This document shows positions 22,011 through 39,089 of a stretch of 40,821 nt of DNA, piece by piece. Made by a program: the position numbers and the translations under genes. Location: the NCBI GenBank assembly GCA_021790475.1, contig JAJYDU010000006.1, positions 1 to 40,821 of the forward strand, in the 5' to 3' direction. How positions within the stretch are numbered: the stretch's first letter is position 1; each line of letters opens with the position of its first letter. Below the pieces are notes generated by a model. That model was given only the letters and a program-made list of their open reading frames with translations. It was not told where the DNA came from and ran no database searches. This DNA is from Planctomycetota bacterium (lineage in GTDB: Bacteria; Planctomycetota; Phycisphaerae; WQYP01).

Positions 22011-23840
22011 CTATTTCACCAGGGGCTTTCGGAACAGTTTATCATGTTGCCAGCGAAGCCCCTCGATTTTGGGACGGGCGGCACGGGCCAGATTCATAAA
22101 GTCATCCAAACGCAGCGGTTCGAAACGCGCCGGTGGCAGGCGCTTCATCACCTGGTCAAACAGATAAGGGTTCCCCGTATAGATTACCACGAACCATGGA
22201 CCGGAAATCTGTTTGGCCTGTGCCAGGAGTTGTCTGGCCATCACCGCAGGATCTTTGAGCTTGTAATAATCGGGACTATACGCCACCGGGATACCGGCGG
22301 CGGGATATTCAACCGATTGGAAGCCGCTGCTCCATTGGGTAAGCCCATGTAAGCCGCTGGTCTTCAGGAAGGTATTCCACAATCCCCGTTTTTTCAAATT
22401 GTCATCCCACCAGATGTCGCCGATGGTCAGCCCGCTGGCGCGCAACCCTTGATGGATCAGCCGTGCGTATGGAATTAAAAGCTTCTCGGACATCGCATCC
22501 GGATGTGTATAACCCCAGCATGAATCGGCGGCGAAGAAATAATCTTGCGGCGTCGCCGTCTTGTAGTAATAACTCACGAGTCCGGGAAATTGCCGATAGA
22601 GCAGTGGATCCATGCCCCAGTTGATGGGAAACCGGCCGCGTTCGGGTTGAATCCAGGCGCCGAAATTTTCCAGGGCGGTCAGACATTTAAGCGTATCGCC
22701 CTCGTTGACCATGAACGCGATGTAAATTTTATCTTGAAGCAGTTGGGTTTTCTTTTTTCCGCCGGGTTGGCCAAAAGGTTTGGTCAACACCGGCATGCCA
22801 TGGTAAAAGGTTCCGTTCCCATTGGCGGTGCATATCAGAACATGACCGCGACGCGATATATGATTGACCAGGGCATTTTCGCCCGGCAGGCCCCAGCCGT
22901 AAACCGGTGCCCATGGCTCAAGATGGTTGAGGATTTTGTCTATCAAGCCGCCTTCCAGAGCAATCTCTTTGAGCTTCCCGGGATTATGTGTGGGGTGCGA
23001 GTTGGAATTGCCATAGTCAAGTTGCAGGGTAAACCAGCGCTGCTGAATCGCCAGGTCCACGTCGGGGAGCGTATCGAAGGCGGTGGAACCATAATCAAGA
23101 ACGCGCGAGAAAACTCCATGCCGGGAGCATTCCGGCAGCAGATGCGCAATCGCCCAACGGTGGGCCGCCACGCGCCGGGGCAAGCCGGGTTGATATTGTG
23201 GATACAGGCTGCCCACATCAAAGACTGTCGCCGGCGGGTGTTGCAGCCGTGAAAACCATTGGCGGCGCACCATCGGTGTTACAGGGATCGCATCGCGCAA
23301 TCCCGCCATGGTCGCCGCCACCGCCAGGTCGTCATCAATATTGTGATAAAGTATCACACCCTTTATATGAGCCGAGCAGCGGGCGATCAGTTGTTCGACG
23401 GTGCATGTCCGAAACCGAAACAGACCGAGCCGGGCCAACTCGGCTATCCAGAAATCATCAATGGAGCGGTATTTTTTTGATATTTTCGCCGCTATCGCCG
23501 GATTCCATCCGGCAAAGCTTTCTCCGGGCTTGAAATGAAAGCCGAACCGCAGGAAGGCCAGGGACCGGCCATAATTGAGAAATACGCGCGAACCGTTTCG
23601 ATTCGCCAATCCCTGCAACGCCGCCATGGTCAGACGCTCGTCGGTGGTAAAGCTTCCCGCGTCTATCACCCATACCAAAGGCGGTTTCGACCTCCACGGC
23701 TCTGCCGCGACAGAACCATCTCTCGCCATCAATCCGCCAAGACCCACGGCGGCGAGGACTTGCAGCATATCGCGCCGTGAAAGCAGCGCCGCTGTTTCAT
23801 TTTGTAAATGCCCCACGCCTTTCCTGTCGATTCTACTCAT
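22011..23840 (-). CDS. GxGYxYP-type putative glycoside hydrolase, Tat-exported
   Basis: The 609-residue product has a twin-arginine signal (LLSRRDMLQVLAAVGLGGLM) and two regions that match the GxGYxYP family. The N-terminal part starts PPLVWVIDAGSFTTDERLTM and AALQGLANRNGSRVFL. The catalytic-like part has VYGWGLPGENALVNHISRRG, then DSCWGYTHPDAMSE, where the family's GxGYxYP appears as C-W-G-Y-T-H-P. The family is predicted to act on glycans, but I know of no defined reaction. ATG at 23840 follows AAGGAAA by 9 nt; the frame extends to 24047, but through an untranslatable-looking palindrome. It heads the cluster with GH3 and GH130, whose start directly follows this stop. Confidence 0.78.
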   Translation of the reverse strand: MSRIDRKGVGHLQNETAALLSRRDMLQVLAAVGLGGLMARDGSVAAEPWRSKPPLVWVIDAGSFTTDERLTMAALQGLANRNGSRVFLNYGRSLAFLRFGFHFKPGESFAGWNPAIAAKISKKYRSIDDFWIAELARLGLFRFRTCTVEQLIARCSAHIKGVILYHNIDDDLAVAATMAGLRDAIPVTPMVRRQWFSRLQHPPATVFDVGSLYPQYQPGLPRRVAAHRWAIAHLLPECSRHGVFSRVLDYGSTAFDTLPDVDLAIQQRWFTLQLDYGNSNSHPTHNPGKLKEIALEGGLIDKILNHLEPWAPVYGWGLPGENALVNHISRRGHVLICTANGNGTFYHGMPVLTKPFGQPGGKKKTQLLQDKIYIAFMVNEGDTLKCLTALENFGAWIQPERGRFPINWGMDPLLYRQFPGLVSYYYKTATPQDYFFAADSCWGYTHPDAMSEKLLIPYARLIHQGLRASGLTIGDIWWDDNLKKRGLWNTFLKTSGLHGLTQWSSGFQSVEYPAAGIPVAYSPDYYKLKDPAVMARQLLAQAKQISGPWFVVIYTGNPYLFDQVMKRLPPARFEPLRLDDFMNLARAARPKIEGLRWQHDKLFRKPLVK

Positions 23841-24018
23841 TCGCTGTTTCCTTGTATTTGAAGCCCGGTCCGCGCGGTGTCCTCGGCCGTCGGCTCGCTG
23901 GTGTGGCCGTGGCCCACATAAGCCGGCTCCACCGAATGACTCCGTGCCCTTCCGCACCGTTCTCGTGAGTTGTTTAACTCGCCGCCGGTCCTGATGCAAG
24001 CCCTGCGGGGGGGCGGCA

Positions 24019-24038
24019 ATCCCGATAGCTATCGGGAT
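24019..24038. repeat. Perfect 20-bp palindrome
   Basis: ATCCCGATAGCTATCGGGAT is a perfect palindrome between the glycan cluster and the ATPase-TOPRIM island. It abuts the stop codon of the orphan coding fragment at 24038-24199. It may be an interspersed element or a bidirectional terminator without a T tract. Confidence 0.8.
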
Positions 24039-24199
24039 CAGGAGCAACAGCCGATTCCTCCTCGGCTGCCGGCCTTCTTATATTTCTTGAGGCAGGTCAT
24101 CACATTGACGCGGCGGAGGTAGCCTTTCGTTGTGTCGTCAGGTATCTTCACCCAGCCATCGTGCACGAAGTAGCTTTGCTTCCGCAGGAGCAAGAGGCG
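24038..24199 (-). pseudogene. Orphan protein-coding fragment (about 53 codons)
   Basis: The minus-strand frame from 24199 to a TGA at 24040-24038 reads like real protein: RKQSYFVHDGWVKIPDDTTK then GYLRRVNVMTCLKKYKKAGS. It follows an in-frame TGA at 24202-24200, has no ATG, and ends at the palindrome; the last residues (RGGIGCCS) look random. It is in the same frame as the TOPRIM-like gene, 30 nt after that gene's TAG TAA stops. I do not recognise the family. The most likely reading is the eroded 3' end of a gene that once lay here. Confidence 0.4.
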
Positions 24200-24229
24200 T
24201 CATAGGCGCCCCGCGCGTCTGGATTGTTA

Positions 24230-24772
24230 CTATTGCAGCCGCGTGCGGTACTCTGCGCATGCCGCCACCAGCGACGATGGCGGCGTCCCTTCCATCGCTC
24301 CTTGCTGACACATCTCATAAAGGCGCTGGGTTTGGTCTTGACAATCGCGCTCCCGTATGAGGCGCGGATACCTGTCGGTCTCGTTTACGTTCTTGCCGGC
24401 CAGATAAGCGAGCCATGTCTCGATGTTTCGGGCTGGGGCAAAAATCGCCACTCGTTCGTCAGCCTGGCGGCGCTCGGAATCCTTTTCGCCACAGGCTTTG
24501 TCAATCTGCTCCACACGCGTGGCGGATTGTGCCGCGTCCGCATCGATAAGCACAACCAATGCCTGACCAACTCTGTGCTTTCGCACCCGATAATAGGCAA
24601 GCTCCTTGACAAATCGTTCCCGAACGAATTGCTCGCCTGAACCACGGCCTCGCGGGCTGACTTCCACTCTCTGTACCCTTACCTGCTTGCCAGCCAGCGC
24701 CAGGAATCTTCGAGCGAATGCCTCGTGTTGGCGATCCTCACACAAAATGACGACTTGAACATTTCGGCTCAT
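24230..24772 (-). CDS. Small TOPRIM-like protein (RloB/DUF4276-like), partner of the ATPase
   Basis: The 180-residue protein has the marks of a TOPRIM nuclease fold: a first strand ending in glutamate (VVILCEDRQ, E12), and a later strand with D-x-D (VVLIDADAA, D77 and D79). A later N-I-E-T-W motif (E118, W120) recalls RloB and DUF4276 proteins. Such proteins pair with AAA ATPases in anti-phage systems (AbiL, PARIS, RloAB; Gabija's GajA fuses both parts). Its ATG overlaps the ATPase stop in ATGA, so the two are translated together. At 180 residues it is shorter than PARIS AriB. Which known family it belongs to, if any, cannot be settled here. The nuclease role is inferred, not shown. Confidence 0.65.
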   Translation of the reverse strand: MSRNVQVVILCEDRQHEAFARRFLALAGKQVRVQRVEVSPRGRGSGEQFVRERFVKELAYYRVRKHRVGQALVVLIDADAAQSATRVEQIDKACGEKDSERRQADERVAIFAPARNIETWLAYLAGKNVNETDRYPRLIRERDCQDQTQRLYEMCQQGAMEGTPPSSLVAACAEYRTRLQ

Positions 24773-25878
24773 TGGTCCCAACCCCGCGCGATAACCTCAG
24801 ATAGTTTCAGCACTCCATCGACGGCCATCTCCCTGGCGGGCCGTACGATTGTCGCACCCGAGGTTTCCCGCCGGAGTACCAGACCTCTGTCGCCGCCGAG
24901 ATAGTCAATCAACTCCGGATGGTGCGAACAGAGCAGCGCCTGCGGCACCTGCCCGCCGCACGCATCGGCAAGCGCGATCAGCCAAGGTTGAATCTCGGCC
25001 AGCGCGACGTAATTGTCCGGTTCGTCGAGCAACAGCGTGTATCCTTGTCCCGCCGCCAAGCTGACCAGGGAGTACAGGGCGATCAACGCACGCTGTCCAT
25101 CAGAGATCTCGTCCAGCCGTAGTTCATAGCGTTCGCCGAACTGGTCGAACATGACCATTAAAGCCCGTGTGTCGCGACCAACCTTCTCCATTCGGATACC
25201 CCGGAAGCCCGCGACCACATCCTGCAACGCCTTCGTAAACTCGGGTACCAGTTCCTGTCGTTCCAGCAGTACGTGCCGATACCACGCCGCGAAATTATGG
25301 GCGTCCCGTTGCAAGACCGCATCTTCGGTTGACGATTCCGCCACGAAGCTGGCGGGATACAGGCCACAAACAATCACCTTGCGCATGAAATCCAGAAACC
25401 GTGTGAGCTTCGTGTTTTCGGGGCGTGAAGGCACGCGCGCCAGCGCGGACTCCGTCCAGTCGGCGCCGAACGTCGGCCCCTGGGTATGATCATCCCGGTA
25501 TAGATGCACTTCGCCAAGCTCAAAGATGAACAGCGGCTTGCCTTGCGATTCCAGGCTTTCCAGCGAGATCCGCGCCTTGCGGCTTGCCCGTTCGTGCTCG
25601 ACCTCCAGCCGATAGCGCATTTCATCTCCTTCCAGAACCGTATCCAGTTCGAACACCTGCTTGTCGCGTTTTTGCCAGCGCGTGAGCGTAGCGGTCAGAA
25701 AGGCCGCCTTGTCAGTAATCCTGGCTTCGCCGCTTAGCAGTTGTCTCAATGCGAATATCGCATCCAGCACGGATGTCTTGCCAACACCGTTGGGACCAAG
25801 CAGCAACGTCAGATCTTGAAGCTCGAGCTTGAAATTAACCAGACTTCTGTAGTTGTCTATGTAAAGGCGTTTGATCAT
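24769..25878 (-). CDS. AAA/ABC-like ATPase of a two-gene defence-type module
   Basis: The 369-residue protein is an AAA_21/RecF-like ATPase of the OLD/SMC style. It starts MIKRLYIDNYRSLVNFKLEL. Walker A is GPNGVGKT (28-35), the ABC signature is ISDGQRALI (about 258-266), Walker B is LLLDEPD (282-288), and the H-loop is CSHHPELID (about 317-325). The middle, about 90-230, has no recognised domain and no long coiled coil. Such ATPases sense infection or DNA and control a partner nuclease. The ATGA overlaps at both its ends, with a 97-codon fragment upstream and the TOPRIM-like gene downstream, imply one transcript. The exact system type is not identified. Confidence 0.8.
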   Translation of the reverse strand: MIKRLYIDNYRSLVNFKLELQDLTLLLGPNGVGKTSVLDAIFALRQLLSGEARITDKAAFLTATLTRWQKRDKQVFELDTVLEGDEMRYRLEVEHERASRKARISLESLESQGKPLFIFELGEVHLYRDDHTQGPTFGADWTESALARVPSRPENTKLTRFLDFMRKVIVCGLYPASFVAESSTEDAVLQRDAHNFAAWYRHVLLERQELVPEFTKALQDVVAGFRGIRMEKVGRDTRALMVMFDQFGERYELRLDEISDGQRALIALYSLVSLAAGQGYTLLLDEPDNYVALAEIQPWLIALADACGGQVPQALLCSHHPELIDYLGGDRGLVLRRETSGATIVRPAREMAVDGVLKLSEVIARGWDQ

Positions 25879-26168
25879 TGCAGCATCCTCTCTGGGGGCC
25901 GGGAGACATCATTATTCACCGCCTCTCCGGCAGCTTGTTTGACTTTGTATGTGTAATGACAATCGTTTTGACGGTTGCCGTCAAATTTTTCGTTGTCCGC
26001 AAAATCCGCGGTCTTCTCGTCCCAGTCCCGGAACCACGGATATTCGGCTATGGGCCGCTGGATTTTTTTGCCGCGGTATTTGGTCCATTTGAAGTTCGGC
26101 TCGTGATAGAGAACGCCGGCCTCCTTTCTAACGTTGGGCAAATCGGACGCCAAAACGGCGGGTGGCAC
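25875..26168 (-). pseudogene. Protein-like 97-codon frame, probable 3' remnant of a larger gene
   Basis: The frame from GTG 26168 to TGA 25875 has convincing composition: EAGVLYHEPNFKWTKYRGKK, then IAEYPWFRDWDEKTADFADN, then EKFDGNRQNDCHYTYKVKQA. It looks like the C-terminal end of a longer protein: there is no ribosome site, the phase stays open upstream to the end of ychF, and nothing precedes the block that looks like an N-terminus. Its stop overlaps the ATPase start as ATGA. The protein family is not recognised. Either the 5' part of a third module gene was lost when the island joined ychF, or this is an intact short protein; I favour the former. Confidence 0.5.
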
Positions 26169-26240
26169 ATTTCGTCGTTTGTTTGGCTGCTCCCGAAAAA
26201 ATTGCCGCTGCGTTAACTCTCGAGGATGGAGCCATCGCCA

Positions 26241-27335
26241 TCAAACGTTGAAAAGAAAGTGGACGATGTCGCCTTCCTGCAGCACGTAATTCTTGCCTTC
26301 CGAGCGCATTTTTCCCGCCGCGCGAATGGCCGCTTCGCTCTTGAGTACTTGCAAATCTGCAATATTGTACACTTCGGCCCGGATAAAGCCCTTCTCAAAG
26401 TCGCTGTGGATGACACCGGCCGCTTGCGGCGCCGTGGTTCCCTGGGCGATGGTCCAGGCGCGAATTTCTTTCGGGCCGGCGGTGAAAAAGCTCTGCAGAC
26501 CCAGCAGACGATACGCCTGGCGCGCCACCGCGTCCAGCGCCGGCTCCGGCAGCCCCAGGTCCTTGAGCATGGCCTGGCGGTCCTGATCCGTTAGTTCCGC
26601 CAGTTCCGCCTCCAGCTTGGCACATACCGGCGTCATCGCGCCGCCCTCATCGGCGGCCCGCCGCCGCACCACTTCGGCCAGCGGTCCGCGGCCATGTGGA
26701 TCCGACTCATCCACATTGGCGACATAGAGGACTTTTTTTGCGGTCAACATTCCCCAGGAACTGATGGCTTTGCGTTCTTCCGGTTTGTAACCAGCCAGAA
26801 GGGACCGCAGCGGTTTACCGCGCCGGAGCGATTCCGCGCACGCTTCCATCAGACCCAGGACCATTCCGGCTTCTTTACCGCCGGTGCGGGCGAGACGGCG
26901 GTGCTTATCGAGCGACTTTTCCAGTGTTTCCAGGTCGGCGAGCATCAATTCGGCGTCGCTGATATCGATGTCGCGCTGCGGATCAACACCGTGCTCCACA
27001 TGCAGTACTTCACCGTCTTGAAAGCAACGCACGACGTGTAAAATGGCGTCCACCTCACGGATATGGGCAAGAAACTTGTTGCCCAATCCTTCTCCGGAGC
27101 TGGCGCCGCGGACCAGGCCGGCGATATCCACCACTCGCAGCAGCGCCGGCACGATTTTTTCGGTTGCGATAAACTTGTTGATTTGCGCCAGGCGTTCATC
27201 CGGAACGCTTACCACGCCGACGTTTGGTTCAATGGTGGCAAAGGGGTAATTCGCCGCCAGCGCTCCCGCGTTGGTCAGGGCGTTAAACAGCGTGGACTTG
27301 CCCACATTGGGCAAACCGACGATACCAACCTGCAT
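26241..27335 (-). CDS. ychF: Redox-regulated ATPase YchF (Obg-like)
   Basis: The 364-residue protein is the universal Obg-like ATPase YchF/OLA1, which binds ribosomes and favours ATP over GTP. G1 is GLPNVGKS (7-14), the following [20 protein letters not shown] is typical, G3 is DIAGL, and the G4 position is N-V-D-E, the form linked to ATP specificity. A C-terminal TGS domain ends in [10 protein letters not shown], the usual last residues. ATG at 27335 is correct; an in-frame start at 27452 would translate the antisense of the tRNA-Lys gene. GGGAG lies about 13 nt upstream. The tRNA gene is 29 nt upstream on the same strand. Confidence 0.95.
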
Positions 27336-27364
27336 CAAAAAACCACTCCCAAAATAAGTGAAAC

Positions 27365-38709: not shown

Positions 38710-39089
38710 GGGGGCGAAAGGTATCGACCGGACAGAAGTGTTGAACATGGCGTGCCGACCTGCCGGACAAGTCGTTAAACTGATCGGCAAAAAATCAAAT
38801 GCTGAGAACTTCACGTTCCCAACAGCCGGCGGCGCAAGCCTCCGGTTGGCCGCCTGATTAAAAAGACGGCCCGGTTCCCGCGGGCAGTCCGCGGCCCGCG
38901 GTGAACCGACGACCAGCGGAATGCGCGAATCACAACGTCGATCGGCGATTCGCTAAGACACAGGATCGGCTGGGGTTGCCGGAAGCCGGGCTACGGGCGC
39001 CCGGCGGCCCGAGATGAATATGAAGCCTACGCATGTAGATGTGTCCTACAACCTGTCACGGGACGAGGGTTCGACTCCCTCCGCCTCCA
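38710..39089 (+). ncRNA. ssrA: Transfer-messenger RNA (tmRNA)
   Basis: A one-piece tmRNA of 380 nt, which rescues stalled ribosomes with SmpB. The 5' end GGGGGCG pairs with CGCCTCC before discriminator A at 39089, and the T arm is GGGTTCGACTCCC; GAAAGGTATCGACC follows the 5' end as usual. The tag frame opens with GCT at 38801 and ends with TGA at 38855-38857, encoding AENFTFPTAGGASLRLAA (18 residues). CCA is not encoded. A reading frame beginning at 39039 inside it belongs to the deacetylase by accident only. Confidence 0.95.

Follow-up and report, generated by a model that had tools for sequence, protein, structure and literature searches.

A PARIS-like, HEC-01-related gene pair, probably from a BREX/Druantia defence cluster, at the ychF locus of a Planctomycetota bacterium

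Two overlapping genes beside ychF in the genome of a Planctomycetota bacterium were found to form a compact pair (1.65 kb as a whole) that is PARIS-like, related to the candidate system HEC-01 and probably derived from a BREX/Druantia defence cluster. The pair lies in the window, by which we mean the whole 40,821-nucleotide stretch of DNA that was analysed. With a probability of roughly three in four, we read it from its sequence and homologies as an intact, horizontally acquired anti-phage module, a putative sensor with a putative nuclease, that has outlived its host system; the role in defence and the substrate are parts of this reading that we infer. An earlier reading of the window, made from the sequence alone, had proposed a candidate anti-phage pair of an ATPase and a small TOPRIM protein, and this interpretation was both supported and sharpened by the present analysis. 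What the sequence-only reading had missed was the BREX context: the pair directly follows a fragment of PglX, the methyltransferase of BREX. The features of the locus are collected in Table 1.

Table 1. Features of the insert and its flanks (positions in the window)
Feature	Position	Strand	Evidence
Whole insert, 2,276 bp	23956..26231		blastn of window against G001:C4, both sides homologous
ATPase, OLD/ABC-type, predicted sensor subunit, 369 aa	24769..25878	-	motifs, PADLOC, AlphaFold, Foldseek
Small TOPRIM-like protein, predicted nuclease effector, 180 aa	24230..24772	-	conservation, AlphaFold model, profile matches
ATGA start/stop overlap of ATPase and small gene	24769..24772	-	sequence; -4 spacing recurs
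PglX remnant, C-terminal end	25875..26177	-	PADLOC PglX 2.6e-13; genome search E 2.4e-11; identity to PglX of L020
DruA (DUF4338, Druantia) remnant, N-terminal end	24041..24190	-	similarity to L242 ORF
ychF, conserved upstream flank	26241..27338	-	90% identical in G001
Downstream flank gene, conserved	22011..23930	-	79% identical, adjoins ychF in G001

The insert at the ychF locus

Comparison of the window with the same-genus genome G001 by blastn revealed an empty site in the latter, in which a mere 59 bp, between ychF and the downstream gene, stand in place of the window's 2,276 bp, and the insert was delimited on this basis. The pair is thus not conserved at this locus, and its earlier description as an insertion beside ychF held in this comparison; a search of 17 same-family genomes recovered ychF itself in 15, at E <= 3e-147. 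The fragments that had been noted on either side of the pair proved to be the C-terminus of a PglX upstream and the N-terminus of a DruA downstream. The PglX remnant, whose stop codon overlaps the start of the ATPase gene (ATGA), covers profile positions 1049-1123 of 1125 (75 positions) and is 64-65% identical to the PglX of locus L020. It is the only clear PglX match in the genome (contig C88 has a weak second match, at 1.8e-4, within another large ORF), a search of the genome, which is 91% complete, found no PglZ, and from the Type I BREX set (brxA, brxB, brxC, pglX, pglZ, brxL) the window has the PglX C-terminus only. Over 42 aa, the DruA remnant shares 55% identity (E 6e-9) with the ORF L242, which itself matches DruA at 1.2e-112. 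With these remnants of BREX and Druantia on its two sides, the reading of the pair as a defence module gains in strength.

Both genes of the pair are complete and retain every conserved residue while both flanking genes are cut down, and a pair that still works is therefore more likely than a relic. If the pair were a relic of a BREX/Druantia island, it would be as fossilised as its neighbours, lacking both promoter and function, and would merely have escaped disruption so far; the fragmentary state of both flanking genes, the lack of PglZ throughout the genome and the failure to recognise a promoter within the insert are consistent with this explanation. However, no terminator was found on the ychF strand, so that read-through from ychF into the pair is possible, and we consider a relic unlikely, also in view of the relatives described below.

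The insert also holds a perfect 18-bp palindrome, TCCCGATAGCTATCGGGA, at 24020..24037, which recurs once elsewhere in the genome (C36:4306). In the sister genome G001, the gene of the downstream flank is interrupted by a single in-frame TGA. Elsewhere in the window, a tmRNA gene was located at 38710..39089 (+), with the tag peptide GGASLRLAA.

The two proteins and their closest named systems

The ABC-type motifs that had been read from the sequence are all present in the ATPase, which contains Walker A (GPNGVGKT, residues 28-35), the signature (ISDGQ, 258-262), Walker B (LLLDEP, 282-287) and the His loop (SHH, 318-320). Across an alignment of 40 homologues, the cores of these motifs did not vary: G28, N30, G31, G33 and K34 of Walker A, S259 and G261 of the signature, D285, E286 and P287 of Walker B, and S318, H319 and H320 of the His loop. 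The best match among all PADLOC models was HEC-01A (2.7e-24, 327/399 positions), and mad3 (8e-22), AriA (8.7e-19) and PDC-M25A were matched as well. Against Pfam, the protein scored 64.8 bits for AAA_21 (cut-off 27) and 45.6 for AAA_15 (cut-off 32.1). Its AlphaFold model (pLDDT 93.9) was placed by Foldseek closest to PtuA of Septu (2e-14), retron PtuA, and Rad50 and OLD (6p74), the last two at about 1e-12 to 1e-13. The ATPase also matches RecF. The protein is an OLD/PtuA-type ABC ATPase, the kind that serves as sensor in several defence systems. Its overlap with the 180-residue gene, four bases common to both ORFs as first reported, would couple the translation of the two.

The case for TOPRIM in the small protein had been made from E12 and D77-x-D79, and conservation bore these residues out: among 54 homologues, E12, D13 and D77 were invariant, and D79, R86, E118, T119 and W120 were at least 90% conserved. 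In the AlphaFold model (pLDDT 92), the order of strands is TOPRIM-like, and the acidic residues occupy the canonical positions: E12 directly follows strand 1, and D77/D79 directly follow strand 3. Foldseek returned no significant match for this model against the PDB and viral models; the weak matches include OLD C-terminal domains, topoisomerase II, the DnaG TOPRIM and a RloB-like protein. The PADLOC search that gave HEC-01A for the ATPase found no model for the window's small protein at E <= 1, HEC-01B included, and the protein scores below the Pfam cut-off for DUF4276. The direct profile matches of its family are weak (OLD-like TOPRIM, E 0.046; DUF4276, 0.0069), and the TOPRIM link runs through HEC-01B. 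One HEC-01B model matched 27 of the 54 relatives (the best value for any HEC-01B model was 1.3e-6), and the family profile, widened with distant relatives, matched HEC-01B profile to profile at 3e-9 (reversed control, 0.22); in this match, E12, D77/D79 and E118/W120 face identical residues. The HEC-01B profile in turn gave 1.2e-5 against OLD-like TOPRIM and 5.4e-8 against DUF4276. Linked through these profiles, the small protein is predicted to be a TOPRIM protein, and profile comparison did not place it outside that fold.

The likeness to HEC-01 (Hma-embedded candidate 1; HEC-01A/HEC-01B in PADLOC-DB) consists in an ATPase gene and a small-protein gene in identical order, the HEC-01A match and the profile-to-profile match of the small-protein family; the difference is that the window's small protein has no direct HEC-01B match and belongs to a separate, conserved subfamily with the signature CEDxQHE and RxxNIETWxxYL. 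With PARIS (AriA-AriB), the pair shares an OLD-ABC ATPase and a predicted TOPRIM protein as separate genes, an ATPase that resembles AriA models and lies above the AAA_15/AAA_21 cut-offs, and, in relatives, the place between pglX and pglZ in Type I BREX (PMC9009780, PMC11341690). However, PARIS is detected by an AriB effector with DUF4435 above cut-off (PMC9122126), and no DUF4435/AriB match was found for the window protein (E <= 1) or among the families listed for its 54 relatives, nor did a search of the genome find DUF4435; PARIS proper was therefore rejected. The effector is also shorter than AriB, as had been claimed (180 aa, whereas residues beyond 230 have been named in AriB; PMC12409363). 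The proposed kinship with PARIS, AbiL and Gabija stands as regards the superfamily of the ATPase and the logic of a two-gene system, but not for the closest named model, which is HEC-01 rather than AriAB, nor for the effector, which is not a DUF4435 protein. By its ATPase and the adjacent predicted TOPRIM gene, the pair falls into the broad class of two-gene OLD-ABC ATPase plus TOPRIM modules.

Two further systems were compared. MADS resembles the pair in the mad3 match of the ATPase and in weak mad4 matches of 7 of the 54 small proteins (best 0.0027), but no further gene of that system was seen next to the pair. The fused OLD nucleases, Gabija GajA and P2 Old, are built from the same ABC ATPase and TOPRIM parts, and OLD is among the fold matches of the ATPase, but the window has two genes instead of one and the similarity outside the P-loop region is weak. 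Gabija was rejected, because it needs a fused GajA and the GajB helicase and no helicase gene adjoins the pair within the insert.

Spread of the module and the pglX-pglZ slot

When bacterial and archaeal genomes were scanned with the ATPase only, 78 loci were recovered, and the small protein was also encoded downstream in 73 of them. The overlap was exactly 4 bases in 54 of the 80 loci where it could be measured, and the loci come from about 17 phyla by record title, although most are metagenome-assembled genomes in which single phylum assignments may be wrong. This recurrence of gene order, overlap and pairing goes far beyond chance: the two genes are a genuine and ancient pair. Substitutions that separate the window from its nearest relatives were far more frequent at third codon positions (0.47-0.65) than at second positions (0.08-0.26), a pattern expected for proteins under selection, at the level of the family. 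A homologous ATPase also lies directly upstream in 57 of 58 HEC-01B or DUF4276 loci, which joins these modules into one large superfamily. In the window's class, DUF4276 proteins were present in 85 of 248 genomes, with an OLD-type ATPase upstream in all 30 loci inspected; DUF4276 plus ATPase is a very common and little-studied type of module there.

Patchy presence (13 of 150 related genomes, distant homologues included), absence from the locus in the sister genome and movement between phyla led us to reject the hypothesis of a housekeeping DNA-repair pair, a RecF/Rad50-like ATPase with a RecR-like TOPRIM protein; this is the least probable of the explanations considered, in spite of the Rad50 and RecF matches of the ATPase. 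Among 50,697 phage records there was no match to the pair, viral contigs gave four weak P-loop matches and nothing else, so that no phage-borne origin was shown, and plasmids gave just two distant matches (25-27% identity). These searches bear on a further alternative, that the pair directs the same ATPase-gated TOPRIM chemistry at another target, as in plasmid exclusion or competition between mobile elements. The module is mobile, and the logic of ABC ATPase and TOPRIM is also found in the anti-plasmid system Wadjet (PMC10568477); but the phage and plasmid counts speak against such a target, the recurrent position inside BREX operons points to phages, and we regard this alternative as very unlikely. 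The neighbours of most standalone loci look ordinary, and few of the 110 neighbours scanned matched defence models (DrmD, ZorD/DpdE, type III methyltransferase and PDC-M38A); an enrichment of these loci in defence islands is not claimed.

The module occurs both alone and within Type I BREX operons, where it sits at the pglX-pglZ slot. In 12 of 95 loci, the pair lies right behind a PglX C-terminus. The Cloacimonetes locus L079 is a complete Type I BREX operon with two ATPase-nuclease modules inside, in the order brxA, brxB, brxC, ptuA, ptuB, pglX, pair, one further gene, pglZ and brxL, and the order pair-pglZ-brxL was also seen in L039, L065, L069 and L070. The second module of L079 is a complete Septu pair (PtuA, PtuB; L079:4515-6565) between brxC and pglX. 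Since the two-gene region between pglX and pglZ of Salmonella LT2 encodes an ATPase and a DUF4435 protein, that is PARIS (PMC9009780), the window family fills an identical slot with a different effector family.

At other loci, as in the window, BREX is reduced to fragments: an intact pair adjoins a short PglX tail and a 120-residue piece of PglZ in L019 and a 56-residue PglX tail in L021, and in L032 a short PglX tail lies beside a pair whose small gene runs off the contig. These three loci suggest recurrent loss of BREX around the pair. On the ATPase tree, the BREX label was scattered: its 12 rows needed 11 changes, no improvement on shuffled labels, and strong branches forced at least six changes, although some of the rows taken as BREX-free may have BREX beyond the ends of short contigs. 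Hence repeated entry into and exit from BREX seem likely for the module, and BREX is not an obligatory partner. Most relatives are BREX-free, so the pair does not need BREX, and this, together with the survival of intact pairs beside the PglX tails of L019 and L021, argues against a relic.

Proposed mechanism and implications

PARIS is triggered by anti-restriction proteins such as Ocr. In this system, AriA binds and restrains AriB and frees it upon sensing a phage protein, and AriB then cleaves tRNA (PMC12409363). By analogy, the OLD-family ABC ATPase of the window would probably be the sensor, keeping the small TOPRIM protein inactive until a phage product, possibly an anti-restriction protein, is detected and the TOPRIM protein is switched on. 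The latter would act as a metal-dependent nuclease in which E12, D77 and D79 bind the metal ions used to cut nucleic acid, and this cutting would kill or arrest the cell and so stop the phage. The module probably reached the ychF locus within a defence cluster that has since lost its BREX and Druantia parts.

The concept behind this mechanism is known, since TOPRIM-linked OLD-ABC modules in BREX have already been described as backup suicidal effectors (PMC12839542), a description that fits the window family. That paper deals with modules of the PARIS type and does so without the name DUF4276; its relevant sections give no account of an orphaned state such as that of the window.

A more specific proposal, which we put forward tentatively as a doubtful but real possibility, is that the subfamily, so far unannotated, fills the Type I BREX pglX-pglZ slot independently, as a guard of BREX whose small effector has a target unlike that of AriB and which continues to work after BREX is lost. 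If this is true, the orphaned copies behind PglX tails would be live abortive-infection systems that mark former BREX sites. In a survey of about 7,000 stretches of genes between pglX and pglZ, about 5,000 were without a known defence system (PMC11341690), and the window family, with an effector that current PADLOC and Pfam models do not catch, is a concrete candidate for some of these unexplained stretches. With the orphaned copies, nature also provides a test of whether a guard module depends on the system that surrounds it.
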